From NCBI GenBank assembly GCA_030651695.1, contig JAUSCD010000028.1, positions 1 through 64,000 of the forward strand: a DNA stretch of 64,000 nucleotides, given 5' to 3'. Shown piece by piece: positions 13,552 to 34,897 of the stretch. How positions within the stretch are numbered: position 1 is the stretch's first letter; each line of letters opens with the position of its first letter. The DNA comes from Pseudohongiella sp. (lineage in GTDB: Bacteria > Pseudomonadota > Gammaproteobacteria > Pseudomonadales > Pseudohongiellaceae). The notes beneath the pieces were generated by a model. That model did no database searches. It saw only the letters and a list, made by a program, of their open reading frames with translations, and was not told the origin of the DNA. Made by a program: the position numbers and the translations under genes.

Positions 13552-14145
13552 TCACGCGTTTACGTCCACGCCCTCTGTAGGAGCACGGGCGATCATTACC
13601 ATTGCCGGGCGCAATACCCGGCCATTGAGGCTGTAACCCTTTTGCATAACCGCCAGCACGCTGTCTGGCTCGGCAGTTTTACTTTCAACCATGCCCATGG
13701 CCTGATGAAATTGCGGATTAAACGGCTCACCCACCGGATCTATTACCTCCACATTGAATTTGCGCAGACAGTCGATAAAACTCTTGAGAGTCAATTCCAC
13801 GCCCTGCTTCAAAGCTGCTATCTGCTCATTGCCCTCACCCTGGGCAGCCTGCAAGGCTCGCTCCAGGTTGTCTATTACAGGCAACAGCTCAGACAACAGG
13901 CGCTCCTGCCCATACTTGTGAGCTTTCTCTACGTCCTGCTCGGCTCGCCTGCGGATATTTTGGGCATCTGCGTGCAATCGCAGCACTTCTGTCTGATGGC
14001 CCGCCATTACCGCATCGGCTTCGGCCAGTTTGAGCAGTGCCTGCTCCAGTGTTAACTCGCCGGCAGAGTCCTGTTCAGCGTTTATGCTGTCATCCATCAT
14101 CTGCTCTACTATTGGGTCGCTCTCTTTATTGAAGTCGTTAGTCAT
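13552..14145 (-). CDS. grpE: nucleotide exchange factor GrpE
   Basis: Promotes ADP release from DnaK. It has 197 residues, with an acidic N-terminus, a long coiled-coil helix (about 40-90) and the C-terminal beta domain containing NPQFHQAMGMVES and the terminal RPAMVMIA. It lies upstream of dnaK on the same strand with about 170 bp between. Its own sigma-32 promoter is clear, so the three heat-shock genes are co-regulated. Confidence 0.97.
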   Translation of the reverse strand: MTNDFNKESDPIVEQMMDDSINAEQDSAGELTLEQALLKLAEADAVMAGHQTEVLRLHADAQNIRRRAEQDVEKAHKYGQERLLSELLPVIDNLERALQAAQGEGNEQIAALKQGVELTLKSFIDCLRKFNVEVIDPVGEPFNPQFHQAMGMVESKTAEPDSVLAVMQKGYSLNGRVLRPAMVMIARAPTEGVDVNA

Positions 14146-23093: not shown

Positions 23094-23455
23094 GGGGCCG
23101 ATTTGGATTCGACGCCGGTATCAAACCCTGAGGTGCATGTCGAGAGGGTATAGACTCTCGTAAATCAATCTATGCAACTTTATAGTTGCCAACGACGAAA
23201 GCTACGCACTCGCTGCCTAATTAGGCGCAGCGAGCGGTTGCCCCGGGATGCCTGTAAACCGGTGTATTGCAACCGTCATATAGAACAGGATCGCTAGCCT
23301 AGTGCGCCTGACACGAAGCGGCTAAAAGTATCGGGCTCGCCTGAACCACCCTGCCCGTCGGGCCGGTAAGGGTTAACTTAATAGACGACGCTAAACATGT
23401 AGATCCAAAGGCAGCGGACTGACGGACGGGGGTTCAAATCCCCCCGGCTCCACCA
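23094..23455 (+). ncRNA. ssrA: transfer-messenger RNA
   Basis: One-piece tmRNA of 362 nt. The 5' GGGGCCG pairs with the 3' CGGCTCC before CCA (with one G-U), and the T-arm GGGTTCAAATCCC is present. The resume codon is GCC at 23188, and the tag frame (23188-23220) reads ANDESYALAA then TAA. This differs from the E. coli tag by N-to-S at position 5. The 3' CCA is encoded and ends at 23455. The 3' end is the attachment site of the integrated element that follows immediately. Confidence 0.98.
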
Positions 23456-23468
23456 ACCATAGAAAAAT
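23430..23468 (+). repeat. attL: tmRNA 3'-end copy of the integration core
   Basis: The segment from GGGTTCA in the tmRNA T-arm through CCACCAACCATAGAAAAA is repeated imperfectly at 32331-32369. It spans the T-loop, acceptor stem and the first bases after CCA, the classic target region for tyrosine recombinases that integrate in ssrA. The tmRNA is kept functional by this copy. Confidence 0.75.
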
Positions 23469-23498
23469 GACGGCCATTAACAGCCAGTCAAACCACAA

Positions 23499-23526
23499 AA
23501 AGCCCCGTATCCCGGGGCTTTTTTGT
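23499..23526 (+). terminator. tmRNA terminator carried by the element
   Basis: Hairpin AGCCCCG / CGGGGCT (23501-23507 with 23513-23519) with a 5-nt loop and a T-run. It is preceded by an A-run, so it could also act leftwards. It lies 45 bp beyond the tmRNA CCA, inside the element, and would replace the host ssrA terminator displaced by integration. Confidence 0.9.
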
Positions 23527-23563
23527 TCTACAACGTCCATTACTGTCTTGCGGCATCCACAGA

Positions 23564-23617
23564 TTGATGTAACACTGTTTGTAACACGGCCTCCAATGTT
23601 ACAAGAACGGTGTTACA
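23564..23617. repeat. left-end integrase arm-type repeats (TGTAACAC)
   Basis: Two direct copies of TGTAACAC (23568-23575 and 23580-23587), 12 bp apart, are followed by TGTTACA (23597-23603) and an inverted GTGTTACA (23610-23617) that abuts the integrase start codon. The same pair with the same 12-bp spacing occurs at the right end (32261-32280), and a single copy lies at 24989-24996. They are probably Int arm sites and may also autoregulate int. Confidence 0.65.
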
Positions 23618-24870
23618 TGGCAGCGAGAACGAAGGCACTGAGTGATGCCCAGGTCAGGCAAGCGAGACCCCGCGAAAAGGAATACAACCTTGCGGATGGT
23701 GGCGGCTTGTTCCTGCGTATTAAACCGACAGGCACCCGAACCTGGCTATTCAATTACTTCAAACCCTACACCCGCACACGCTCCAATCTCGCTATTGGCC
23801 AGTATCCCGGCGTCACGCTGTCAGCCGCCCGTCAGAAGCGCACTGAGTACCTGGAGTTGCTGGCGCAGGATATAGATCCGAAAACCCACCGTGACACTGC
23901 AGAGCGCCTGCAACAGGAATCACACAATCAGACTCTGGCTGTAGTGACAGATGCATGGACGACCATCAAGCGCACCAAAGTCACCAAGGACTACGCGGAC
24001 GACATACGCCGATCACTGGATCTGCACATCTTGCCAAAGCTTGGGAAGCTACCTGTTCACCTGATACGCGCCCAGGACGCCATTACGGTACTTGAGCCTA
24101 TCGCTGCGCGCGGATCGCTGGAAACGGTCAAGCGCCTATGTCAGCGTTTGAATGAAATCATGACTTACTGTGTGAACACTGGGCTGATCGAACACAACCC
24201 ACTGGCTGGCATCGGCCAGGCGTTTATTGCGCCAGCCAAAAACCACATGCCGACACTCAGACCTGATCAGCTACCGGATCTGATGCTCAAACTATCTCGC
24301 GCCAGCATCCGGATAACAACTCGCTGCCTGATTGAATGGCAATTGCACACTATGGTGCGACCAACTGAAGCGGCCGGTACCCGATGGGAAGAAATCGACC
24401 TTGAGAAAGCACTGTGGACCATCCCCGCGCACCGTATGAAAAAGAAGCTGGCGCACACGGTTCCCCTTACCCAGCAGGCAATTGGGCTCCTTCAAACTAT
24501 GATGCCGATCAGCCGGCACCTGGTACACGTTTTCCCTGCAGACAGGAATTCAGGCACCCACACCCACCAGCAGACTGCCAATATGGCACTGAAGCGCATG
24601 GGTTATGAAGGGCAACTGGTTGCTCATGGTCTGCGCGCATTGGCCAGCACCACGTTAAACGAGCAAGGCTTTGACCCGGACATTATCGAATCCGCACTGG
24701 CCCACATCGACAAGAACAGTGTCAGGGCGGCATACAATCGCTCCGACTATGTTGCGCGTAGGCGCGTGATGATGAACTGGTGGTCGGAACACATTGAGGC
24801 CGCGGCTCACGGATCGCTAAGCATTTCAGGACACAAACACCTGCGGCCAGTACTGGCTAAAACTGCCTGA
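23617..24870 (+). CDS. int: P4-type tyrosine site-specific integrase
   Basis: 417-residue integrase with the N-terminal DUF4102-type arm-binding domain (KALSDAQVRQARPREKEYNL), a core-binding domain and a C-terminal catalytic domain. The catalytic residues are visible: R248 (HTMVRPTEA), H337 and R340 (HGLRALAST), H363 (ALAHID) and nucleophile Y373 (AYNRSDY). It sits directly next to the tmRNA attachment site. The start at ATG 23617 fits the family N-terminus; ATG 23596 and longer readings are possible. The repeats around the start suggest that Int represses its own gene. Confidence 0.95.
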   Translation: MAARTKALSDAQVRQARPREKEYNLADGGGLFLRIKPTGTRTWLFNYFKPYTRTRSNLAIGQYPGVTLSAARQKRTEYLELLAQDIDPKTHRDTAERLQQESHNQTLAVVTDAWTTIKRTKVTKDYADDIRRSLDLHILPKLGKLPVHLIRAQDAITVLEPIAARGSLETVKRLCQRLNEIMTYCVNTGLIEHNPLAGIGQAFIAPAKNHMPTLRPDQLPDLMLKLSRASIRITTRCLIEWQLHTMVRPTEAAGTRWEEIDLEKALWTIPAHRMKKKLAHTVPLTQQAIGLLQTMMPISRHLVHVFPADRNSGTHTHQQTANMALKRMGYEGQLVAHGLRALASTTLNEQGFDPDIIESALAHIDKNSVRAAYNRSDYVARRRVMMNWWSEHIEAAAHGSLSISGHKHLRPVLAKTA

Positions 24871-24983
24871 AGAGATAGGGTTTCGCGGTGTGAGAAAACT
24901 GGCGCCCGTAGTTAAAAAAGAAAAAGAATCTCCCACTTCAGCATCTGGCAAAACGAAACAGAGGGATATCAGGTTATGACCTT

Positions 24984-24996
24984 ATTGATGTAACAC
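24984..24996 (+). repeat. single internal TGATGTAACAC repeat
   Basis: TGATGTAACAC downstream of int matches the 11-bp core present at both element ends. It lies in the 207-bp gap before the next gene and may be an extra arm site or an operator of the following operon. Confidence 0.45.
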
Positions 24997-25077
24997 GCGA
25001 TCGATTAAAGCGGGGCGGCCGGTAGTGAAGTACCTGCCACCCCTCATCACAACCAGAACTACAAAGGAGTTCATGCC

Positions 25078-25500
25078 ATGACTGATAACAATTCTACTGC
25101 AACAAGCCCTCACGTCCCACTGTCGGGCGTACAACACGACCTTGATCATGCCTCGGTGGTGCTTAAGCTCATTTTTGACGCATCTGAAGACTATGACATC
25201 GATGAGGATCATGACGTCAGGACAGATGTATTCCGTGGCTATGAGGTCGCTGCGAACCTCCTGAATGATGCCCACACAGTGGCGGACGTTGCAGAAGTCC
25301 CTGCAGCACTCAAACATCCTTTAGCAATGTTCCAGATCAAATTACTCCACGTAGGAGAGTACTGCTTTTTGCTGCGGGATAAAGCTGGAAGTAAGCATTT
25401 TGACCGCCGCGCTCTGTCGGCCATAGCCGTTCAGTTGATGGAAGACATCCAGCGCGAATTCAATGGCCTTCTAAGCGCACAAATGGAGAAAGCAGCATGA
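25078..25500 (+). CDS. element protein of unknown function, 140 aa
   Basis: I do not recognise this family. It is a soluble, acidic protein with an acidic run (ASEDYDIDEDHD) around residues 40-50 and a helical C-terminal half. A very good ribosome-binding site (AAAGGAG, 9 bp upstream) supports the start. It is first in a tightly coupled trio: its stop overlaps the next start by 4 bp. There is no signal peptide or membrane segment. The position after int suggests an early/regulatory gene or an anti-phage/helper-interference cargo, but nothing in the sequence proves this. Confidence 0.75.
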   Translation: MTDNNSTATSPHVPLSGVQHDLDHASVVLKLIFDASEDYDIDEDHDVRTDVFRGYEVAANLLNDAHTVADVAEVPAALKHPLAMFQIKLLHVGEYCFLLRDKAGSKHFDRRALSAIAVQLMEDIQREFNGLLSAQMEKAA

Positions 25501-26003
25501 ACAATAATTCAAACCTGGCTGAGCCCACACTCTCCCCAACTGCCCCATACCAGCCGATCTCCGGTGAGCTCAGATTCAAGAGCCGCAAATCCCACCCTTT
25601 GCACCGCCTCCCGTTTGTCGGGCCGGTACCCGGCAAAGTTGGCTTGTCCTTTTGGGACGTGCCCAGATCAGGTGGCTATACAGGTGGTAACCTGACCGGT
25701 CAGGCTTTGGCGCGGTTTTATTTAAAGCATCTCAGAGTCCACGGAGCAAATGACACAGGCAACCTTCAAAACATAGTCCTGGATATGTTAGGCAGTGACG
25801 ATTCCGTCTCACCCGAAATGCTCACTCTACGCGGCCAAATCGTCGGTTTCTTCTCCGAGCTTGATGTGTGGCTTGCAAGTGCGGCCCAGAACATAGATGG
25901 CGGGTTGGACTCTGACGACAAAACAGCACTTCTAAAAAAAGCCAATCAGGGTCTGACTTTAAACGCTGAAGAATACTTCGCATCACTTTCAGGTCAGAAA
26001 TGA
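25497..26003 (+). CDS. element protein of unknown function, 168 aa
   Basis: Not recognised. The N-terminal 60 residues are proline-rich and basic, with a glycine-rich middle (SGGYTGGNLTGQALARFYLKH), followed by an acidic helical C-terminus. It overlaps both neighbours by 4 bp (ATGA), so the three genes must be translated together and may form one complex. There is no membrane segment. Confidence 0.75.
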   Translation: MNNNSNLAEPTLSPTAPYQPISGELRFKSRKSHPLHRLPFVGPVPGKVGLSFWDVPRSGGYTGGNLTGQALARFYLKHLRVHGANDTGNLQNIVLDMLGSDDSVSPEMLTLRGQIVGFFSELDVWLASAAQNIDGGLDSDDKTALLKKANQGLTLNAEEYFASLSGQK

Positions 26004-26554
26004 AAGCAAAGCCACACGAGATCCAGCAACCACCTGGAACTGAAGCGGAGCCCATTACCTCCGGCACCCCATCGCATGAATCCATCGATGGGGTGCCGGA
26101 CGTTGATTGGGAGGAGTCCAGACGGAAGTTGAAAATGTTTGGTTTCAAAGTTCAATTACAACGCGCTTCCGAAGAGTTTAATTTTAGACAGGCTCACGAC
26201 GCAGGAAATGAAAGTGCCGTGCTGTACGCAGTGGCGCTGGCGGCAATCACGGGCAAGAAAATTCCGAAGTGGGCAGCAGAGACGTTCGTTGAAAATTTCT
26301 TCTGTGTACGTGACTACCAGGCTAAAAGTTGGGATGACGTTTTTGGCAAGCCACATCCGCCCCGCACAAATTTTAAAGCTATCCAGAAATGGAAAAAACT
26401 GGCGTCACCAGTATTTTGGAGGATTGAAGAGCTTAGAAACCAAGGTATTCCAATTGATCAAGCTTTCGAAAAAGTCGCATCCGAGAAACTCATAAGCTCA
26501 TCGACAGCTCGAGACTATTACTATCGTTACCTCCGCGATTATCTGCCGTTTTAG
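26000..26554 (+). CDS. element protein of unknown function, 184 aa
   Basis: Third gene of the overlapping trio, not recognised as a family. The N-terminus is Pro/Glu/Thr-rich and probably disordered. The central part contains an SAVLYAVALAAITGKKIPKWA helix, and the C-terminus has SSSTARDYYYRYLRDY, which looks like a DNA-binding helix-turn-helix (recognition of a gap after 'ISSSTAR'). That hint is weak. A 117-bp gap follows before the AlpA-like gene. Confidence 0.72.
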   Translation: MKAKPHEIQQPPGTEAEPITSGTPSHESIDGVPDVDWEESRRKLKMFGFKVQLQRASEEFNFRQAHDAGNESAVLYAVALAAITGKKIPKWAAETFVENFFCVRDYQAKSWDDVFGKPHPPRTNFKAIQKWKKLASPVFWRIEELRNQGIPIDQAFEKVASEKLISSSTARDYYYRYLRDYLPF

Positions 26555-26671
26555 TACAGCTTTTGGGTTTACAAAAGAATCCCCTTCCGTTTGTAAAGAC
26601 CTACAACCTGACTGCCTATAACCTTCCTCACTATTGTCCAGTAATGACAACAGACAGCCAGTGAGGAACTC

Positions 26672-26932
26672 ATGCCAAAGATTGAAGAAAAAGCCCCCGT
26701 CTCCAAGCTCAACCCAGCGCCAGCAACAGCCAGAATTTTGCGCTGGCCTGAAGTCCAAACGCGCACCGGTATATGTCGAAGTCACGCACATGATCTGGTT
26801 AAAAAGGGCAAATTCCCCGCCCCAATAAAATTGGGCCCACGCGCCAGCGGCTGGGTAGAGGCAGATATCGACGCCTGGATACAGGATCGCATCGAGTGTT
26901 CACGCTCAGCCACTGAGCCATCTGGAAGTTAA
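26672..26932 (+). CDS. AlpA-family transcriptional regulator / excisionase-like
   Basis: 86-residue protein with a MerR/AlpA-type winged helix: ILRWPEVQTRTGICRSHAHDLVKKGKFPAPIKLGPRASGWVEADIDAWIQ, here described in parts, has the typical 'R-x-G-W-x-x-x-x-I-x-x-W' ending (residues about 57-70). AlpA proteins activate or excise P4-like satellites and cryptic prophages. GTGAGG precedes the ATG. In this element it is the best candidate for the excision or induction switch. Confidence 0.85.
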   Translation: MPKIEEKAPVSKLNPAPATARILRWPEVQTRTGICRSHAHDLVKKGKFPAPIKLGPRASGWVEADIDAWIQDRIECSRSATEPSGS

Positions 26933-26997
26933 AAAGCCATGCTCTGGTTGCAGCCAGAGACATGGCCAGATAAAACGCAAACCAGCGGCAATATACC

Positions 26998-27507
26998 ATG
27001 GCAAAGAAAAAGAATATCCACCCGCTCGACACACGCGGCGGCGTTATTGTCACCAGTCGGGCCATGTTGGAGTCACAACCATACCTGGCACTTTCTGCAC
27101 AGGCAAAGGTGCTTATGATGCTCATGCACTCGCAATGGCGCCCAGATCGGCCAATTGGTTACGGCGTGCGTGAAGCCATGGAGAAAATACCTTGCGCAAA
27201 AGGAACCGCACAAAAAGCGTTCGATGAGCTCGAGAGTGCCGGCTTCATAAAGATGATCGACCACTCACTTTTTATCGACCGCATACGCGCGAAGGCCCGG
27301 ACTTGGCAACTGAACTGGATGCCCTACATGGGCAGGCGTCCGTCACATGACTGGGAGCGGAAAGCTTCAAATATCCAAGACATAAAACCGCAACAAAAAA
27401 ACGATTTAACCGTACCAAAAACGCACCCTGTGGATACATCACAGGGTCAAAAACGCACCCCCAATTTATTACAGAGCGCTCCACAGGGTCAAAAATGCAC
27501 CCTGTGA
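26998..27507 (+). CDS. winged-helix Rep-like or regulatory protein
   Basis: 169-residue protein. Residues about 17-95 form a winged-helix resembling the N-terminal domains of phage/satellite replication proteins (TSRAMLESQPYLALSAQAKVL, then IPCAKGTAQKAFDELESAGFI, which looks like a recognition helix). The C-terminal 40 residues are low complexity because the DNA there contains repeated dyads (27415-27506). A Rep gene with binding sites embedded in its own 3' end is a common plan for iteron origins. No helicase or primase motif is present, so the initiator role is only an inference; a transcription factor is the alternative. Confidence 0.6.
   Translation: MAKKKNIHPLDTRGGVIVTSRAMLESQPYLALSAQAKVLMMLMHSQWRPDRPIGYGVREAMEKIPCAKGTAQKAFDELESAGFIKMIDHSLFIDRIRAKARTWQLNWMPYMGRRPSHDWERKASNIQDIKPQQKNDLTVPKTHPVDTSQGQKRTPNLLQSAPQGQKCTL
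27415..27506. repeat. iterated dyads, putative origin or operator
   Basis: Three related units lie inside the 3' end of the winged-helix gene: AAAAACGCACCCTGTGG (27417-27433), CACAGGGTCAAAAACGCACC (27440-27459) and CACAGGGTCAAAAATGCACC continuing to CCTGTG (27482-27506). The last is an 8-bp perfect inverted repeat, CACAGGGT/ACCCTGTG, with a 9-bp centre. Unit centres are roughly 22-42 bp apart. A nearby ACAGGGT also occurs at 27526-27532. Confidence 0.6.
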
Positions 27508-27587
27508 GGGGGTTTTTTCAGAGCTACAGGGTACATATTTGAGACGTACCTAATTAGCCACCACCTATCGCGATTGAGAGTGTTTTT

Positions 27588-27890
27588 ATGCTGGATGCTG
27601 GACTCATAAAAACTGACGCGGATTGCTATCAAGAGCGTTGCCGGCGCACACATGATGAGCTGCGTCATTGGTGCCGGCAAAACGATGTGCCCGTCACTGT
27701 TGATGGAAGGGTATCTGAAAAAATCGCTGCGCAAATTGCCGGTTATTCAGATGAATATTTTATGAACATGAGGAAGATCGGAGCAGGCCCGCCCTGGTAT
27801 CGGCTTTCTGCTGGTGATGGCCGGTTCAGTTACCGGCTATCTGATATTGCAAGTTGGATTGAAAACTTACGACAGGAGAACGAGAAATGA
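27588..27890 (+). CDS. small DNA-binding-like protein of unknown function
   Basis: 100 residues. The C-terminal half (KIGAGPPWYRLSAGDGRFSYRLSDIASWIE) ends in the Y-R-x-x-D-I-x-x-W pattern of AlpA/excisionase-type winged helices, so it may be a second small regulator. The N-terminal half is helical and basic. It overlaps the next gene by 4 bp. No ribosome-binding site is obvious. Confidence 0.65.
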   Translation: MLDAGLIKTDADCYQERCRRTHDELRHWCRQNDVPVTVDGRVSEKIAAQIAGYSDEYFMNMRKIGAGPPWYRLSAGDGRFSYRLSDIASWIENLRQENEK

Positions 27891-28135
27891 CAGATATGTA
27901 TTTTCAGAGCTTTGCAAATAGTGCTGCTTCTGCAGCTGCCCGGATGGTTTCGAATTTGTCCGTTGAAACACAGAGACGAGTAGAGGAGAAAATGGCAGGC
28001 GGCTGCAAGCTTTCAATCAGTCTGATCACTGGAGCCAGCCCAGCTGATGTGGAAATAGTATTGTTCCTGGTTGATGCGGCTGGAACACATCACCGCGTTG
28101 CAGCGGTACCGGCCAAGAATGCGGCTGTAAACTGA
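27887..28135 (+). CDS. element protein of unknown function, 82 aa
   Basis: Small protein, not recognised. It has an N-terminal helical stretch with many alanines and a C-terminal half of alternating hydrophobic residues (VEIVLFLVDAAGTHHRVAAV) that is probably beta. The start overlaps the stop of the previous gene (ATGA). A 106-bp gap with a hairpin-like palindrome region separates it from the capsid gene. Confidence 0.6.
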   Translation: MTDMYFQSFANSAASAAARMVSNLSVETQRRVEEKMAGGCKLSISLITGASPADVEIVLFLVDAAGTHHRVAAVPAKNAAVN

Positions 28136-28241
28136 GAAATGCCGATATTTCCGGATAACTCGGGATATTAAGTGGATGGTCTCGGTGGTGCTGGCGCCTC
28201 ACACTGAGACCTGATCCCCTTAATGATCAGAGGAAGTTGAA

Positions 28242-29420
28242 ATGCCAGAAAATGCATATGAACAAAACATGGCGTTCGTCGCCAAACAGTATCAAGCAGT
28301 GCAAAATAATTTGAGTGAAGTTGATGCCAACTTAAGGGATTTTGCAAAAAGCCGGGAACAAAAAGACTTCGAATTACAGGCGCGAATTATGGAAGTAGAA
28401 CAGAAATTGATTGCTGGCGCCGGTCAAAGTTTCCACTCGGTGGAGAGACCTTACAATCCACTGAATGATTTGCTCAAGGAAGCGGAGGATGATTACGGCT
28501 TCAGTAACCTGAAGAAATTCAGCCCAAACTCCTCTTTCAAATTGCCGGTTAACAGTTCTATCAGAGCAATACTTACAACTGATGGATGGGGCGATAGCAA
28601 CGCCACCTCGGTACCGTCACAACCCCAACGCGTGGGCGTGGTAGGCACACCGGAAGCTCCGCTGCGACTAATCGACGCATTACCCGCTCAGCCAGTCACG
28701 TCCGACTCGATTGAATACGTGAAAATGACCAGCAGCGGGGAAGCAGGCGAACAAGTCAAGCACGGCGATGAGAAAGCAGAGGTTGAATTTTCTGGCGAAT
28801 TGGAGCGTTCAGATATCGCGACAATTGCAGCGCACACAACCGCTTCCAAACAAGTCTTGGATGATAACGGGAATCTTGCAAACGAGATTGCCAGAATGCT
28901 CAATTACAAACTGGCCGCGAGAGTTGAGCATCAGCTTATAAACGGAGACGGCACACCCGGCAAAATTAAAGGCCTGCTGCTGCAAGCGTACCACTATATT
29001 TTTTCGGCCTCGCCGCTGTCGCCTGCTGACAAAATCGGCGCTGCTCTTACAGCGATGGAGATGGAAGGCTATCAACCGAGCATTGTGTTAATGAACCCGA
29101 TTGACTGGTTCACGATTCAGACCCAGAAAGATCTGCAGGAGCAGTATCTGTTTGGCTCTCCAACCAGTCCGCAACCGCCCAGCATCTGGACCCGACGTGT
29201 GGTGACCAGCAACAGCGTGCCAAACGGTACTGTTCTATGCCTGGACACCAACTACATCAAGTTACTTGATCGTGAACGCGCGTCTGTCTCGATGACCAAT
29301 AGCTATATGGATTATTTCACCAGAAACTTGGTCAAGATCCTTGGCGAATTACGACTCGGGTTGGCCGTGTACGATGAGAAGGCCTGTTACAGATTCAGTA
29401 TTGCAGACAGCAGCGAGTAA
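28242..29420 (+). CDS. HK97-fold phage major capsid protein
   Basis: 392 residues. The first 70 form a charged coiled-coil delta/scaffold-like region, then a typical HK97-type body follows: an SDSIEYVKMTS block, E-loop-like charged strands, KQVLDDNGNLANEIARMLNYKLAARVEHQLINGDG (the spine helix and the conserved 'GDG' seen in many capsid proteins), and an A-domain with SIVLMNPIDWFTIQTQKD. AGAGGAAG precedes the ATG. No protease or portal gene is adjacent, which is unusual because HK97 scaffolds are normally cleaved. In a satellite, such a capsid could redirect assembly of helper-phage particles. Confidence 0.9.
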   Translation: MPENAYEQNMAFVAKQYQAVQNNLSEVDANLRDFAKSREQKDFELQARIMEVEQKLIAGAGQSFHSVERPYNPLNDLLKEAEDDYGFSNLKKFSPNSSFKLPVNSSIRAILTTDGWGDSNATSVPSQPQRVGVVGTPEAPLRLIDALPAQPVTSDSIEYVKMTSSGEAGEQVKHGDEKAEVEFSGELERSDIATIAAHTTASKQVLDDNGNLANEIARMLNYKLAARVEHQLINGDGTPGKIKGLLLQAYHYIFSASPLSPADKIGAALTAMEMEGYQPSIVLMNPIDWFTIQTQKDLQEQYLFGSPTSPQPPSIWTRRVVTSNSVPNGTVLCLDTNYIKLLDRERASVSMTNSYMDYFTRNLVKILGELRLGLAVYDEKACYRFSIADSSE

Positions 29421-29528
29421 CAGTTATGGCGGAGAGCACACGGATTAGTCGGTGAGTGCCGTGTCATAGAAAAACCCCGACAGCTGGCGACACTTGTTTT
29501 TAATCATGTCCTCAGGTGTGTGGCTGGT

Positions 29529-29553
29529 GCCCGGTAGGCAATACCTACCGGGC
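29529..29553 (+). other. intercistronic hairpin after the capsid gene
   Basis: GCCCGGTAGG and CCTACCGGGC form a perfect 10-bp stem with a 5-nt loop and no T-run. It lies in the 175-bp gap between the capsid gene and the next gene. It could protect the abundant capsid message from 3' decay or attenuate the downstream genes. Confidence 0.55.
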
Positions 29554-29595
29554 CTACTCCCAAGTTAATTTTCCCCTTCATATTTGAGTATCGAT

Positions 29596-29904
29596 ATGAC
29601 CGAAAATGTCAGTGATGCTTCATTGCAGTTTGCCCGTCGACGGCTCGGCACTCACAGAAAGCGCGCGGCCGAGTATCTGTCAACAGAAATGATCCGGGTG
29701 GTGGAAAAATTATCAGAGGTGGTGATTGAACAGGGACAAACCGTCACTGCTGCAGAGCGTCCGCTGCTCGAGGTTGTAGCCTTGATTGTGTTGCAACGCA
29801 AAGCTTACCCGCGCATGTACCAGGATCTGCAAAGCACCCCGCTGGAAGTCATCCAGAAAATACTGGCAATCGACTTTGACGAGCTCACGAAGGACAAACC
29901 ATGA
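29596..29904 (+). CDS. small protein before tape measure gene (possible tail assembly protein)
   Basis: 102 residues from ATG 29596 (TTG 29584 would add four). Helical and soluble, not recognised. Its place immediately before the tape measure gene, with a 4-bp overlap, is where tail assembly chaperones (lambda G/T position) lie in siphophages. I saw no slippery frameshift site. Confidence 0.6.
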   Translation: MTENVSDASLQFARRRLGTHRKRAAEYLSTEMIRVVEKLSEVVIEQGQTVTAAERPLLEVVALIVLQRKAYPRMYQDLQSTPLEVIQKILAIDFDELTKDKP

Positions 29905-32033
29905 GCAAAAGAAGCTTAGGAACACTGACCGTTGATCTGATCCTGAAAATGGGCGGATTTACTGAAGGCATGGATTCAGCAAGCCGCGCGACCAAACAGA
30001 ACATGCGGGAGATCCAGAAGGCAGTCGATGCCAGCGCCCAGCGTGTGAAGAACTTTGTTGTTGCTGGCGCCGCGGCCATTACTGCAGGCCTCGCTATTTC
30101 CGCCAGTCTTGTTAACGCCTCCCGTGTGTCCATAGATGCCAACGCGAAGCTGGCGCGGTCTCTGGATGGCACCACTGACGGTCTGCGGGCGCTCAGGATC
30201 GCGGCCAGCGACTCCGGACTGGAGAACATGGAGTCCTCTTTAAACCGACTCAATCAGAACCTTGGCGCGGTGGAAATGAACGGTGGGCCCGCATTGGAAA
30301 CCGTCAAAGCGCTGAATCTGGATATGCAGGCTATGGCCGACATGGACATCGATGAAAAGGTTGCGTACATCGCTGACGGTATTCGTGATTATGGTGGTTC
30401 CGCGAGAGAGTCCGCTGAACATTTAAAACGTCTGGGGTTTGAACAAGAGTCGGCCATCGAACTGTTCCGCGCTGGTGGTGATGCGATCCGATCCGCCCGG
30501 GGTGAAGTGAATGACTATGGCCTTTCCCTCAGTGAGATTGATGCAAGGAAGGTCGAACTGGCCAACGATGCTATCTCTCGCATGAAGCTGGCGCAGGAAG
30601 GTCTCATCCAGCAGATCACTGCCGGCATTTCACCGTTACTGGTGGGAATGGCTGAACAGTGGAACGAATACAGCAAAGGCGTTGTGGGCAACGGTGCACA
30701 GGTAGAGGAAATGCTGGATCGGTTCATTGTCGGCGGTATCAACACAGCCGCTGCGTTCAGGTCAGGCGCCATCGCGATCAAGAACTTGGTTGAAGATTTG
30801 TGGGGCGGGTATCAGACCCTTCCATCTTGGGCGCAGGAAGTGGGAGTGGCCGGTGCCATCATTGGAGGCAAGAAAGGTGTGATGGTACTGGCGGGCATTT
30901 CTTATGCTCTTAAAGACCTTCAGACAAGTGTTGAGTGGTTCAAAATGTACCAGGAAGGTGCCATTGATTTTCAGGCGCTGGTAAATACCAGTCCGAACGA
31001 TGCGCGCCGGATCATGGAGCAGCTGGGTCGCGAAATTGGAGACTACCAGATCGAAGGCCCTTCTATCATAGAAACATTGTTTGGCGCGCCATCGTCTGAG
31101 GAATCGCGAGAGTGGGCCAATGAATTGATTGATGGTTACAAAAAAATGCGCGATGAGGTAACCCAGCGTGCGACTGCGTTGAACAATGAGTTCCAAGGGT
31201 TATCACCCGTTGAGGATCCACGCACTTCCGGTGCTGATGACCCCGAGCTCAAGCGCCAGGCAGAGCTGAACAGATTGTATCTGCACAGTGAAGAGTCAAT
31301 GAGGCGCCAGATTGAGTTGTTTGGAAAAGAGTCTGAGACCGCCCTCATGTTCTATGAGCTACAGCATGGCAGCTTAAAAGAACTCAATGAAGAGCAGCAG
31401 GAGCGCTTGCTCGGGCTGGCGCATGAGTTCGAACAAATGAAGGAACTGTCTGAGCAGGAGAACATCCGGCGCGCTGAGTTGGAAAAGCAGGCTGACCAGA
31501 TCACTGAGTTCGGGTCACAAGCCGCCCGTAATATCCAGACGCAGTTTGCCGACTACCTGTTTGACCCCTTTGATGATGGCGTCAAAGGTATGCTTAAGAA
31601 CTTCGGCAACATGATTCGTAGAATGTCAGTGGAGGTCGCCTCAGCCAAAGCGCTTAACTTCCTGTTTGGTGGGTTGGCCAGTTCGAGCAATCCCATACTG
31701 GCAGGCTTGGGCTCAGGGTTTGCCGGCATGTTCGATAGTGGCGGCATGATACCAGCCGGTGGCTGGGGCATAGTCGGCGAGATAGGGCCAGAGATTGTGC
31801 GCGGGCCAGCAACAGTGACCAGTCGTCAGGACACTGCCAGAACGCTCGGAGGGTCGACTCAGATAGTTATTAACAACCTTGCACCTGGTGTGCAGGTCAC
31901 GCGCAGCGCTGAACGGTTCGACGGTGGCCGGCGCGTATTAGAGCTCACAGTTAAGGCGCTCGCGGATGCGGCAGACACCGGGCAACTGGATCCGATCATG
32001 GCCATCTACGGTGCCACCCGCCGGGGACGATGA
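29901..32033 (+). CDS. phage tail tape measure protein
   Basis: 710 residues. The N-terminus has the TMP start motif (LGTLTVDLILKMGGFTEGMD), followed by an alanine-rich hydrophobic segment at about 50-70. A long helical middle contains Glu/Gln-rich coiled coil (about 420-550). The C-terminus is lambda gpH-like: FGNMIRRMSVEVASAKAL, a glycine-rich FGGLASSSNP... segment and the GGWGIVGEIGPEIV motif. At about 1.5 Angstrom per residue it would specify a tail near 100 nm, a family-based estimate. No other tail gene is present, so its partner must come from a helper or the gene serves to change tail length. Confidence 0.9.
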   Translation: MSKRSLGTLTVDLILKMGGFTEGMDSASRATKQNMREIQKAVDASAQRVKNFVVAGAAAITAGLAISASLVNASRVSIDANAKLARSLDGTTDGLRALRIAASDSGLENMESSLNRLNQNLGAVEMNGGPALETVKALNLDMQAMADMDIDEKVAYIADGIRDYGGSARESAEHLKRLGFEQESAIELFRAGGDAIRSARGEVNDYGLSLSEIDARKVELANDAISRMKLAQEGLIQQITAGISPLLVGMAEQWNEYSKGVVGNGAQVEEMLDRFIVGGINTAAAFRSGAIAIKNLVEDLWGGYQTLPSWAQEVGVAGAIIGGKKGVMVLAGISYALKDLQTSVEWFKMYQEGAIDFQALVNTSPNDARRIMEQLGREIGDYQIEGPSIIETLFGAPSSEESREWANELIDGYKKMRDEVTQRATALNNEFQGLSPVEDPRTSGADDPELKRQAELNRLYLHSEESMRRQIELFGKESETALMFYELQHGSLKELNEEQQERLLGLAHEFEQMKELSEQENIRRAELEKQADQITEFGSQAARNIQTQFADYLFDPFDDGVKGMLKNFGNMIRRMSVEVASAKALNFLFGGLASSSNPILAGLGSGFAGMFDSGGMIPAGGWGIVGEIGPEIVRGPATVTSRQDTARTLGGSTQIVINNLAPGVQVTRSAERFDGGRRVLELTVKALADAADTGQLDPIMAIYGATRRGR

Positions 32034-32035
32034 CC

Positions 32036-32120
32036 GGCGACCCCGGGGGCGGGTCGAAAGTTCAGAGGGTATCGCTTCTAGACCGTCCCCCCAGGTCGAT
32101 TTTTACACCCGCGAAAAATG
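32036..32120 (+). other. cos/packaging-site-like region
   Basis: Immediately after the tape measure stop. A G-rich dyad CGACCC (32038-32043) / GGGTCG (32051-32056) around CGGGGGC is followed by GAAAGTTCAGAGGGTATCGC, then CCGTCCCCCCAGG and an AT-rich CGATTTTTACACCCGCG. From memory this resembles the cos region found just upstream of small-terminase genes in HK97-like siphophages. Here no terminase follows, which is what a helper-packaged satellite would look like. No convincing gene overlaps it. Confidence 0.45.
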
Positions 32121-32258
32121 AAATTTAACTGGGCGCTGGCGCATTGCGACCGCTGACCCCTGGATCGAGTGCCATGACGAAGTGTTGTTGAGCACCTGGC
32201 AGCGAAAGTTTTCATTTTTATTTTCATTTTACGCGGGCTGACTGGGTACCGTCGGGCT

Positions 32259-32280
32259 GATGTAACACCCCATGTAACAC
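32259..32280 (+). repeat. right-end integrase arm-type repeats
   Basis: TGATGTAACACCCCATGTAA and its last bases contain two TGTAACAC copies (32261-32268 and 32273-32280) at exactly the 12-bp spacing seen at the left end. Their orientation is the same as at the left end. They lie about 55 bp inside attR. Confidence 0.65.
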
Positions 32281-32330
32281 CGTTACCCGTGCAAAATGCC
32301 AAAGCCAATTATTTCAGCTGCTTAAGTGCT

Positions 32331-32369
32331 GGGTTCACCTCCCCCCGGCCCACCAATCCATGAAAAAGG
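32331..32369 (+). repeat. attR: degenerate copy of the tmRNA 3' end
   Basis: GGGTTCA, then CTCCCCCCGGC, CCACCAA, CCAT and GAAAAA match the tmRNA 3' end and its flank (23430-23468), with two substitutions and three single-base indels over about 38 bp. The copy cannot form a tmRNA acceptor stem. The divergence suggests an old integration or a copy free to drift. Confidence 0.7.
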
Positions 32370-32404
32370 GGGACTCCTGCAAGGGAGTCCCCCTTTTTCA
32401 TGGA
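32357..32404. terminator. 21-bp perfect bidirectional terminator at the right junction
   Basis: TCCATGAAAAAGGGGGACTC plus C forms a perfect 21-bp inverted repeat with 32384-32404 around a 6-nt loop, with an A-run on the left arm and a T-run on the right arm. It overlaps the outer edge of attR. It is probably the original ssrA terminator displaced by the element, now ending the satellite transcript. Confidence 0.85.
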
Positions 32405-32405
32405 T

Positions 32406-32563
32406 CAGGGTCGGTGGGAAGTGAACTCTTATAGTCGGGTGACCGCCATAAATGGCGGGGATATCACAAAACGGCAGGAAAGCCGTTTTGGACGCCGGCG
32501 CAGCTGGCGGTGCGCAGCACCGAGCGCCAGGGATGGCGCGAGTCAAATCCCCCCCTGACCCTA
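32406..32563 (+). other. hairpin-rich non-coding segment, candidate structured RNA or REP-like repeat
   Basis: No reading frame is convincing here. The ends pair (AGGGTC 32407-32412 with GACCCT 32557-32562). Inside are successive short hairpins: CCGCCATAAATGGCGG, CAAAACGGC with GCCGTTTTG, and GCGCCAGGGATGGCGC. Their hexaloops are ATAAAT, AGGAAA and AGGGAT. A short TCAAATCCCCCC near its end also matches the tmRNA T-arm. It could be a small RNA (loops with GGA recall CsrA/RsmA targets), a REP family member or a relic of an older att site. Confidence 0.4.
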
Positions 32564-32736
32564 CTCAGTCACCAACCCTAAAGCTGATCACGTCGCTTGA
32601 TCGTATACCCCCGCGTCATTACACCCGTCAGTGCAACTGCGCTCCATTGTCAATCAGACCCACGTCCTTGAGCCTCAGTTTCAAATACCTAATACAATAG
32701 CGGCAGTTGCGGGCGACTAGCAGATAGAACGCGACG
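32564..32736. other. non-coding interval, nothing recognised
   Basis: Last part of the 703-bp gene-free stretch between the tape measure gene and the small two-TM protein. I see no repeats, RNA gene or clear terminator in it. The earlier part of the stretch holds the cos-like region, arm repeats, attR, terminator and hairpin segment. Confidence 0.5.
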
Positions 32737-33003
32737 CTACTTATCATCGTTGCTACTGCTTGGGTCATTGTCGACCCACCGGAACGTACCAGCTCGGCTG
32801 TTTACAACATTCAATACAACAAATCGGTGCCAGAAGAACAACACTGCCGCGAGAAAACCACCCCATCCAAAATTATTTGCAGTAAATGACAGCACAGTAA
32901 AAAGCGAGGCCCCCACAAATGTTACCAAAAGATCCAGCGTGTAGTTTTTACCGGCAGCGGACCGCAATTCTGCATCAAGCATTTTTTTAAAAATGACTTT
33001 CAT
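32737..33003 (-). CDS. small two-TM protein, putative bacteriocin immunity protein
   Basis: 88 residues from ATG 33003, with a GGGGGG purine run just upstream. Two hydrophobic segments are predicted (TLDLLVTFVGASLFTVLSF and GFLAAVLFFWHRFVVLNVV), with a basic N-terminus (MKVIFKK) and a short acidic C-terminal tail. It lies 75 bp downstream of the double-glycine peptide gene on the same strand, the usual place for an immunity gene. The family is not recognised, and the role rests on context and topology. Confidence 0.55.
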   Translation of the reverse strand: MKVIFKKMLDAELRSAAGKNYTLDLLVTFVGASLFTVLSFTANNFGWGGFLAAVLFFWHRFVVLNVVNSRAGTFRWVDNDPSSSNDDK

Positions 33004-33078
33004 TAGCCCCCCTGAAGACAATCTGGGCTGAACTGACCGCAGCCAGCTTCAACCCAGATATGCTGACATACCTAGCTC

Positions 33079-33267
33079 TCACGAGAAGAAATCTACACCC
33101 TCGCACGAACTTACAGCGTTAAAAAAAGCCCCAATCATGCCTGGTGGCCCCAGCAATGGCGAAATACCCACAAAAACCATCGCAGAGAAACAACCAACTC
33201 CCATAGTAGTTGGCGGCGACTCTCCACCGCCCACGACAGCAATTTCTTTAGCGTTAAGTTCTCTCAT
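33079..33267 (-). CDS. double-glycine-leader bacteriocin/microcin-like peptide precursor
   Basis: 62 residues. The leader MRELNAKEIAVVGGG fits the class II double-glycine rule closely: L at -12, E at -8, I at -7, V at -4 and GG at -2/-1 if cleavage follows G15. The mature part would be 47 residues, hydrophobic, rich in Gly/Pro/Phe, with two cysteines (mature positions 11 and 40) able to form a disulfide. AGGATTGAGG precedes the ATG. A C39-peptidase ABC exporter should exist elsewhere; none is in this window. A Nif11/other RiPP-type precursor is less likely given the short leader. Confidence 0.72.
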   Translation of the reverse strand: MRELNAKEIAVVGGGESPPTTMGVGCFSAMVFVGISPLLGPPGMIGAFFNAVSSCEGVDFFS

Positions 33268-33647
33268 GCCTCAATCCTCTCTGTAAAAAATGCTCCTGCA
33301 TCTTTGTTATAGCGTCTACTCTTTCAGAATGCCCAAAAAGTTCAATAAAAGGGTGGGGGCAGCCAGATTTTTGGATTAGTGCAGCTTCAATTCAATGCTC
33401 GGCAGTGATGTCAACTATTACCTGTACTTGGTTGCTCAAAACGGTAGCCAGGTAAGAGAAAAGTGATTTTTCGAGGTATATTTAGAATGAAAAGTTGATG
33501 CCTGACGCTTCAGTCGCGGCATTGCATGGCAACATGTCATGCCGGCTAATCAACACTGGTCAGATGCTTTTTCTATTTTGCGATAAAGGACAACTGGCCC
33601 AAACCCACGCATACTGAGGCACCCGCTTCAAACTGAAGGATCAACAC
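33268..33647. other. 380-bp non-coding interval between peptide gene and ACR3 fragment
   Basis: Divergent promoter region with no convincing gene. On the minus strand TTGGGC (33331-33336) and TATAAC (33306-33311) are 19 bp apart and could drive the peptide gene, but the spacing is long. A palindromic GGCATTGCATGGCAACATG stretch near 33522-33545 is noted without an assigned role. Confidence 0.4.
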
Positions 33648-33938
33648 ATGAGCGCCGCCTCAGTCATCGGCAATTTGGAACGCTACCTGTCGCTTTGGTT
33701 GGTACTTTGCATCGTCGCGGGCATAAGCTTAGGCATCGTATTGCCGGATGTTTTCCAGACTAAAGTGAGTATGGAATACAGCTCGGGGAATACTATGGTA
33801 TCTGTGCTGATCTGGTTTATGACGTGTCAGATGATGGTGTCATTGGACCCCATCACCCATCCAGTCCATGTCGCAGACACAGACACGGCCGGTCGCGATG
33901 TTATCTTGCAGCACTCCATAAACGAAGCCTTCCCATGA
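33648..33938 (+). pseudogene. N-terminal fragment of an ACR3-type arsenite transporter
   Basis: 96 codons. The first 60 read like the N-terminus of ACR3 (LERYLSLWLVLCIVAGISLG, then SVLIWFMTCQMM). Afterwards the sequence changes abruptly to an unrelated soluble tail (about 30 residues) and stops. A full ACR3 has about 350 residues and ten helices, so this is a truncated copy or chimera. Its stop overlaps the start of the next transporter gene (ATGA), so it may still serve as a translated leader for it. Confidence 0.7.
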
Positions 33939-34897
33939 ATCGCCCCACCCTCGAACGCCACCAAGTCTGGTTCTACCTCGCTGCCATTCTCTGCGGCCTG
34001 TTCCTGGGAAGCGTCCAGCCATCCCTTGCCACCGGCTTTTCAGCCTTGTTATGGCCCGTACTGGCCCTGTTGCTCTACACCACCTTCACGCAAGTGCCGC
34101 TGCTGCATGTGCGCGAAGCCTTCCGCGACGGGCGCTTTGTTCTGGCCATCCTGCTGGGAAACTTTGTGCTGATCCCCCTGCTCCTCTGGCTGAGCTTGCG
34201 ATGGCTACCCAATGACCCGGCACTGCAGCTCGGTGTCCTGCTGGTATTACTGGTGCCATGCACCGACTGGTTCATTACTTTTACCCAACTTGGGAAAGGC
34301 AACACTTCGCGCGCGATTGCGGTCACACCGATCAATCTGATTGTTCAGTTATTGCTGTTGCCGCTCTATTTATGGTTGATGTTACCGGTTGCAGATTTCA
34401 GCTCCGCAGTAGACATCAAAAAAATATTACCGGCTGCGTTGTTATTAATTGGTTTACCTTTGATCGCAGCCATAATCACCGAGCGCTGGATTGAGTCGGT
34501 GCCCGGCCGGATCATCTGGCGCGACCAACTCGGCTGGTGGCCAGTGCCCTTATTGGCAGTCGTAGTATTTTTGATTGCGGCAGCACAGGTAGGCACCGTG
34601 CTCAATGCCGGGCCTGTGCTGCTAATAGTGCTACCGGTGTTTGCAGGTTTCCTGCTGGTTGCTGCGCTACTGGCGCGACTGCTGACAAGGCTGTTGCACC
34701 TGTCCATGGAGTCAGGTCGCACACTGGCCTTCAGCATGGGCACCCGCAACTCATTTGTGGTACTCCCGCTTGCACTGGCATTGCCTGCAGGCTGGGAGAC
34801 TACAGTGGTGATAATAGTGTTTCAGTCTCTTGTTGAGCTGTTTGGTATGGTGTTTTATTTGTGGTGGCTACCGCGCCTCTTTAAACAGGGAAATTAA
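33935..34897 (+). CDS. ACR3/bile acid:sodium symporter family permease (arsenite efflux-like)
   Basis: 320-residue inner-membrane protein with about ten helices. A VPCTDWFITFTQLGKGNTSRAIA-type signature lies in the middle; the 'PCTDW' cysteine corresponds to the conserved ACR3 Cys in helix 4. FSMGTRNSFVVLPLALALP is the late conserved block. Start ATG 33935 overlaps the stop of the preceding fragment. No arsR or arsC is adjacent, so the substrate could be arsenite or another anion. It converges on the phytase gene with 8 bp between the stops. Confidence 0.8.
   Translation: MNRPTLERHQVWFYLAAILCGLFLGSVQPSLATGFSALLWPVLALLLYTTFTQVPLLHVREAFRDGRFVLAILLGNFVLIPLLLWLSLRWLPNDPALQLGVLLVLLVPCTDWFITFTQLGKGNTSRAIAVTPINLIVQLLLLPLYLWLMLPVADFSSAVDIKKILPAALLLIGLPLIAAIITERWIESVPGRIIWRDQLGWWPVPLLAVVVFLIAAAQVGTVLNAGPVLLIVLPVFAGFLLVAALLARLLTRLLHLSMESGRTLAFSMGTRNSFVVLPLALALPAGWETTVVIIVFQSLVELFGMVFYLWWLPRLFKQGN

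Follow-up and report, generated by a model that had tools for sequence, protein, structure and literature searches.

What is an integrated element that encodes a head subunit and a tail tape measure protein and no recognizable portal, terminase or lysis gene, and what would it do with that pair? A preliminary description of the window (the whole 64-kb stretch of DNA analysed here) had proposed a satellite-like element at the tmRNA gene that might set both the head size and the tail length of particles built by a helper phage. We examined the ends of this element, its gene content, the histories of its two structural genes and the occurrence of the same arrangement elsewhere.

An intact 8.9-kb element is integrated at the tmRNA gene

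The window contains one tmRNA gene (ssrA; 23094-23455, + strand, called by ARAGORN), which is the integration target of an intact 8.9-kb element at 23456-32355 (+ strand), bounded by that gene and by a distal att copy. The tmRNA 3' end forms attL (23430-23455, + strand), and a direct repeat of it forms attR (32331-32355, + strand). This repeat is imperfect, with two substitutions and one missing base, and was therefore tested against the ssrA loci of 13 of 14 genus mates, leaving out G006, in which ssrA lies near a contig end. In four of the 13 loci, homology to the window from 32331 onward begins within the tmRNA 3' end and continues without an intervening element into the flank, reaching only 13 nt into it in one of the four (L185). 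In two of these four, G009 and G004, the tmRNA end reads CCACCA followed by ATCCATGAAAAAG, matching the window after 32355. Because these tmRNA-to-flank junctions match the window from 32331, the att copies are real despite their mismatches, and comparison with the genus mates therefore fixes the element as 23456-32355. The proposed att-flanked integration at the tmRNA 3' end is thus borne out, imperfect repeats included.

The 13 ssrA stretches extend 0.9 to 13.7 kb past the gene, one of them reaching only about 1 kb; over these distances, no integrase profile match was found downstream of ssrA, and a complete prophage at this site, for which the same 13 loci were inspected, was found in none. 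The element's capsid was matched in one of 15 genus genomes, so that spread of the element was not seen.

Integration and replication genes

Eleven consecutive + strand ORFs follow the tmRNA gene, from an integrase to the 710-aa ORF ending at 32033. The tyrosine integrase (23617-24870, with a possible ORF start at 23467; PF00589, PF13356, PF22022) is followed by a 140-aa protein (25078-25500), a 168-aa protein of phage family phrog_12849, whose function is unknown (25497-26003; E 6e-23), a 184-aa protein (26000-26554) and an AlpA-type excisionase/regulator (26672-26932; PF05930, E 2e-16). A probable Rep (26998-27507), a 100-aa protein weakly similar to an excisionase/regulator family (27588-27890; phrog_66, E 0.0014) and an 82-aa protein (27887-28135) precede the capsid gene; the 140-, 184- and 82-aa proteins have no Pfam or PHROG match. 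Pfam and PHROG matches, all on the + strand, confirm the earlier reading of the integrase, AlpA, HK97-type capsid and 710-aa tape measure genes as intact and on one strand.

The 64 kb contain six copies of the octamer TGTAACAC, where 1.3 would be expected; none of 100 shuffles reached six. All six copies are inside the element, and five lie at most 170 nt from its ends: three arm-site-like copies at the left end (23568-23617, the third on the - strand) and two at the right end (32261-32280, + strand), with one pair per element end and a 12-nt spacing in both pairs. These octamers are likely the integrase arm sites of one attP.

The Rep-like gene reported earlier is present and has three iterons, but its family call is weak. 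The 169-aa product is O/DnaD-like by its match to phrog_186 (DnaD-like, E 0.01), and it scores 7.9 bits (E 1.4e-4 in a one-sequence search) against a profile of the Reps of three other loci treated below (L043, L151 and L221), the window being left out. When the proteins of seven loci were searched by phmmer with the window Rep, no match was obtained at E 1, and the matches of a 'rep' profile that holds both the window and the L043 Reps are no test of their kinship. The sequences suggest a weak kinship of the window Rep to those of L043, L151, L221, L150 and L219, which themselves match families of initiation proteins or helicase loaders, in most cases weakly.

The three 21-nt iterons (27408-27502, + strand), found by repeat searches, lie within the last 100 nt of rep, at 95% and 76% to the reference copy, and are a candidate origin. 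Repeats inside or just past a rep-like gene are also found in L219, L221, L150 and L151 and are absent in L043. Phage lambda has an O-type initiator with the origin inside its gene, and the iterons inside the rep-like gene of the element recall this arrangement.

Missing genes and the search for a helper

We built profiles from five portals, four large terminases (TerL), three proteases and two central fibre proteins (J) and applied them at E 0.01 to ORFs of at least 60 aa on both strands of 23094-33700. None of the four kinds was matched, a result that very divergent versions could escape. Pfam and PHROG family matches of the element ORFs scanned include no lysis gene and no connector, and none to a small terminase (TerS), several small ORFs there being without an assigned family. 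At this level of search the reported lack of terminase, portal, protease, fibre and lysis genes stands. Remnants of terminase or portal genes, which would speak against a satellite, were looked for by profile and none was found, and both the satellite nature of the element and its pairing of capsid and tape measure are supported. The element has its own integrase, defined ends and an incomplete structural and packaging set, as satellites in general do.

Queries of the element's own genome with its tape measure protein and capsid matched only the element itself. PF04860 detected one portal in this genome, in a P2-like prophage with another capsid family, and searches with PF03354 and PF05136 for a helper portal had no match. 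That prophage (L056; 112000-131999 of contig C21 of genome G000) encodes a phrog_70 capsid, scaffold, TerL, portal, sheath and tape measure protein. Single-protein scans of genome contigs and viral contigs returned no match. Nor was there a cos candidate, no stretch of more than 16 nt being shared between the element and the compared stretches; the longest were 16 nt with L056 and L057 of its own genome and 15 nt with the G007 prophage (L037). We rejected these 15-16 nt stretches as evidence of a helper, one shuffled control having given 13 nt. The own-genome queries with tape measure, capsid and portal and the shared-DNA comparison thus identified no helper phage, and the helper prophage with a similar capsid and cos suggested as a target of search did not emerge.

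Capsid and tape measure appear to have different histories

The capsid gene (28242-29420, + strand) encodes an HK97-type major capsid protein (PF05065, E 5e-29; phrog_10, E 7e-44) that our trees assign to a satellite lineage. In a 35-row tree, eight satellite-labelled rows and L158 are separated from the remaining 26 by a branch with 100/100 support; by the AU test, a single clade of the eight satellite rows was not rejected (p 0.236), nor is it thereby proved. The labels in these trees were partly assigned after the trees had been seen: L158, labelled phage in the 35-row tree, was relabelled satellite for a 43-row tree once its genes had been inspected. The latter tree, from which the long-branch rows L037, L058, L123 and L091 were removed and L216 left out, groups nine satellite rows at 96/94. 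Adjoining them on a long branch is L215, the capsid of L221, a portal-less stretch in which a protease accompanies the capsid; a second portal-less pair, L201 and L212, is placed elsewhere (96/99). The satellite label needs two changes in this tree, owing to L201; L215 and L212 were labelled 'other', and their portal-less surroundings were recognised only afterwards.

Satellite-clade capsids are rare. A satellite-capsid profile matched 13 of 361 genomes of the order, and the matches comprise four in the satellite clade (the element's own genome, G077, G081 and G087), eight in portal-bearing loci (G094, G129, G242, G263, G267, G341, G357 and G391) and one in G228. Two portal-less stretches with protease and capsid, L201 and L219, have capsids outside the window's capsid clade; the former also has a TerS-like protein and the latter a tape measure protein.

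The tail tape measure protein (TMP; 710 aa, 29901-32033, + strand) matches phrog_2854 (E 1e-41) and is 45% identical to the TMP of the G007 prophage. We compared it in a 77-row tree computed by a quick method from the first 420 residues, with ORFs shorter than 380 aa and the duplicate L067 dropped; among the rows labelled 'other' are partial contigs of unproven prophage status and L064, which is probably related to the L063 element. The window TMP is joined to the TMP of a prophage from the same genus (SH-aLRT 98). For the four satellite TMPs this tree requires four changes, all forced by starred branches, and by this reading of the sequences they have four separate origins.

The same-genus prophage with the paired TMP carries portal, protease, major capsid, adaptor and lambda-type J genes, and the window capsid has no match in its genome. 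The window capsid thus goes with portal-less stretches and the window TMP with a complete prophage, and the head and tail genes would therefore differ in history: the capsid would belong to an old satellite lineage, and the tape measures would have been captured separately. Such separate captures suggest that a tape measure has to fit local helpers.

These differing histories are also the strongest argument against a deletion remnant, that is, a complete phage at ssrA that has decayed and lost all but its capsid and tape measure genes. Both retained genes are ordinary phage genes, the element is found, by its capsid, in only one of the 15 genus genomes, and a degraded capsid element does exist in L158, whose capsid is in two ORFs. 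However, the genes of the element are intact and tightly spaced, and a capsid that goes with portal-less stretches and a TMP that goes with a prophage of a capsid-mismatched genome can hardly come from one phage. The gene order is also found elsewhere with different genes, L043 and L219 having it at tRNA sites. We therefore consider a decaying prophage highly improbable, and the sequences make a fresh prophage deletion an unlikely origin.

With 710 aa, the window TMP is 16 aa shorter than the closest prophage TMP (726 aa). Tail shortening was rejected as its role, since 710 aa lies inside the length range of kin TMPs, and length lends no support to the earlier suggestion that the pair sets tail length. 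Fit to its own assembly, escape from TMP-directed defence and DNA entry are equally possible reasons for the element to have its own TMP.

Overlapping the TMP start is an ORF for a 106-aa helical protein (29584-29904, + strand), in the position of a tail assembly chaperone. Its model is all-helical (pLDDT 68) and had no PDB match with E under 4. The protein had no PHROG match and only weak Pfam matches below the cut-off, and is no more than a candidate tail chaperone. This ORF, like the iterons and the arm sites, was absent from the preliminary description.

The capsid and tape measure order recurs in other small elements

A capsid gene followed by a TMP gene was found in three other small elements. 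L151 encodes an integrase, an O-like Rep, a capsid and a TMP of 402 aa only, for which no continuation was found. L150 encodes an integrase, a weak Rep, a protease, a capsid, a TerS-like protein and a TMP that is 1115 aa long and belongs to another family. L219 comes from a genome with nothing closer than the phylum in common and has an integrase adjoining tRNA-Ser, a 17-nt repeat at 13679, a weak O-like Rep, a protease, a capsid and an 831-aa TMP.

L043 is perhaps a further case, with a weak capsid. It spans 9.4 kb between 50-nt repeats at tRNA-Thr and encodes an integrase, an O-like Rep, a 337-aa capsid-like protein, two small proteins and a 685-aa TMP; L067, from Litchfieldella qijiaojingensis, is a copy of it. 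We did not accept the 337-aa protein as a capsid (model pLDDT 37, no phage match, no Pfam family) and call it capsid-like only. It has weak PHROG matches to families of unknown function and an hhalign probability of 10.8 (E 0.003, in the right order).

Capsid and TMP genes are 480 nt apart in the window; in the window, L043, L151, L150 and L219 taken together this gap spans 98-669 nt, the values for L150, L219 and L043 being entered by hand. It is 2493-6104 nt (median 3554) in 23 portal- or TerL-bearing loci with both genes on one strand, which include the near-duplicates L126/L127 and L115/L116, and 3348-7002 nt in seven further partial contigs without a portal or TerL match.

Neither a portal nor a terminase profile match was found in L038, L039, L040, L043, L063, L148, L149, L150, L151, L158, L201, L219 or L221, of which L038, L149, L150 and L151 reach or approach contig ends, so that genes beyond are possible; strongly diverged portals may also have gone undetected in these loci. 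Proteases were found in L158, L150, L219 and L221, and in L201 by profile. A capsid with no TMP seen occurs in L039, L040, L148, L149 (cut at a contig end) and L221, and L063 (Vreelandella nigrificans, tRNA-Ser) has a TMP, no capsid being seen. The TMP profile misses the TMP families of L150 and L219, and 'no TMP seen' covers only the kinds searched. All six have an integrase and a Rep, helicase or primase, all but L221 have an AlpA profile match, and the capsids of L039, L040, L148 and L149 fall in the window's capsid clade. Since relatives occur with the capsid alone or the TMP alone, the pairing is not obligatory; it is a state that recurs and is not fixed. In Vreelandella olivaria, a relative of the L063 TMP is split into two ORFs near a contig end (L064, 701-3872).

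Comparison with known satellites

Gram-negative PICIs have int, AlpA and a replication gene, together with a small terminase or another packaging-redirecting gene; the window element likewise has int, AlpA and a replication gene, its Rep being weak. P4-like satellites have a P4-type primase-helicase, and the window element differs in that none of its proteins has a Pfam or PHROG match to one.

The closest functional parallel for the TMP is provided by the PLE satellites of Vibrio cholerae. The available text of PMC12987554 reports that particles contain the satellite TMP in place of the phage one, with chimeric tails about 10 nm shorter, as TMP length predicts, and that loss of tmp lowers transfer by 96% to about 99.9%. 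It presents PLEs as the first family of satellites in which manipulation of tail assembly is known, and notes putative tmp genes in satellites outside Vibrionaceae, cf-PICIs among them. Like the window element, PLEs have their own TMP, and they rely on helper tube, baseplate and fibre proteins. They differ in that PLE11 particles hold helper capsid proteins, whereas the window element has its own capsid gene, and in that all PLEs encode a tail assembly chaperone and some a hub protein, whereas the 106-aa ORF is a candidate chaperone by position only (PMC12987554, text as available). Furthermore, the window TMP is related to those of siphophage-type prophages, PLEs being compared here by published description.

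For the head, the accessible text of PMC8569155 describes Ccm of SaPIbov5, which is homologous to capsid proteins, becomes part of helper procapsids and alters their shape. The likeness is an HK97-fold capsid homologue carried by a satellite; SaPIbov5 differs as a staphylococcal PICI for which that text mentions no satellite TMP. The cf-PICIs are integrated satellites with their own capsid, some with a putative tmp (PMC10690885 and PMC12987554, in the parts available), but encode, besides the capsid, a protease, a portal, connectors and both terminase subunits (PMC10690885, same parts), whereas of these only the capsid was found in the window element. AH14b of Pseudomonas is helper-dependent, with an incomplete structural set and a tail assembly protein I gene, and differs in that the available text of PMC4936722 mentions no capsid or TMP gene of its own.

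Among PMC8569155, PMC10690885, PMC4936722, PMC11364771, PMC10884400 and PMC12987554, only the last describes TMP-bearing satellites in the text available. A portal-less element with capsid and TMP was not found in the literature searched, which lay largely outside subscription journals and bioRxiv. The earlier statement that no described element with exactly this pair was known therefore holds for the combination within that literature and needs qualifying for its parts, since a satellite TMP (PMC12987554) and a satellite capsid homologue (PMC8569155) each appear in the available text of those sources. The principle is known from the PLE TMP and the SaPIbov5 capsid homologue; what is new is the small capsid and TMP pair.

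A proposed chimeric head and tail

We think it likely that the element is a phage satellite, integrated at ssrA, that builds particles from its own head subunit and tape together with helper parts. Its helper would probably be a siphovirus, because the nearest TMP sits in a prophage with a lambda-type J gene. When a helper phage grows in the cell, the element would excise through its integrase and AlpA, replicate from the iterons in rep and express the genes for the capsid, the 106-aa protein and the TMP. The capsid subunit may replace or co-assemble with that of the helper, giving heads that would accommodate a 9-kb genome or multimers of it, and the TMP would nucleate tails whose tube, tip and fibre proteins come from the helper, which would also supply terminase, portal, protease and lysis proteins. 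By analogy, we infer that the element does both what PLEs do with their TMP and what Ccm does to the head. In this proposal the element has long kept a capsid of its own, and the TMP has been acquired from phages repeatedly, since it needs to fit the tail proteins of the helper.

A second possibility is that heads are mainly helper-made, the capsid being a minor, Ccm-like redirecting subunit and the TMP serving escape from defence or DNA entry. The HK97 TMP reportedly acts in genome injection, which would suit the latter role, and the window TMP is near its nearest kin in length (710 against 726 aa). Ccm itself co-assembles with the helper capsid protein, as the accessible text of PMC8569155 has it. 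We regard this possibility as quite improbable.

The two proteins might instead poison the assembly of invading phages in a dominant-negative manner and shield the host, the element itself being transferred rarely or not at all. Defence systems are known to target tail assembly: the available texts describe Tai (PMC11364771), Tab acting on a TMP (PMC10884400) and Rta acting on the ICP1 TMP (PMC12987554), but these systems act on tail components and are not themselves TMPs. Both genes of the element are moreover of phage-like length, and integrase, AlpA, iterons and att arms are kept intact. An interference element thus seems improbable to us, and we retain the satellite with its own head subunit and tape.

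We see about an even chance that the element represents a widespread, unnamed class of satellites of roughly 8-12 kb, with morphogenesis reduced to a capsid-tape module, a satellite-only capsid lineage and a tape re-captured from local helpers; head and tail would then be chimeric and the tape exchangeable to follow the helper. Small capsid and tape elements in other host groups would make the remodelling of both virion halves a general satellite strategy, and the contrast of an old capsid lineage with repeated TMP capture makes it directly testable which virion parts must match the helper.

Sequences flanking the element

A hairpin at 32356-32400 of the window resembles one directly 3' of ssrA in G009; in the window, the 8.9-kb element separates it from the tmRNA gene. 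Just outside the element, a 62-aa ORF (33079-33267, - strand) that begins MRELNAKEIAVVGGG and has no Pfam match looks by eye like a bacteriocin-type peptide with a double-glycine leader. Further along (33648-34897, + strand), a 96-aa ORF without a Pfam match, which by eye resembles a truncated transporter start, overlaps an ORF of the sodium/bile-acid symporter family (PF01758).
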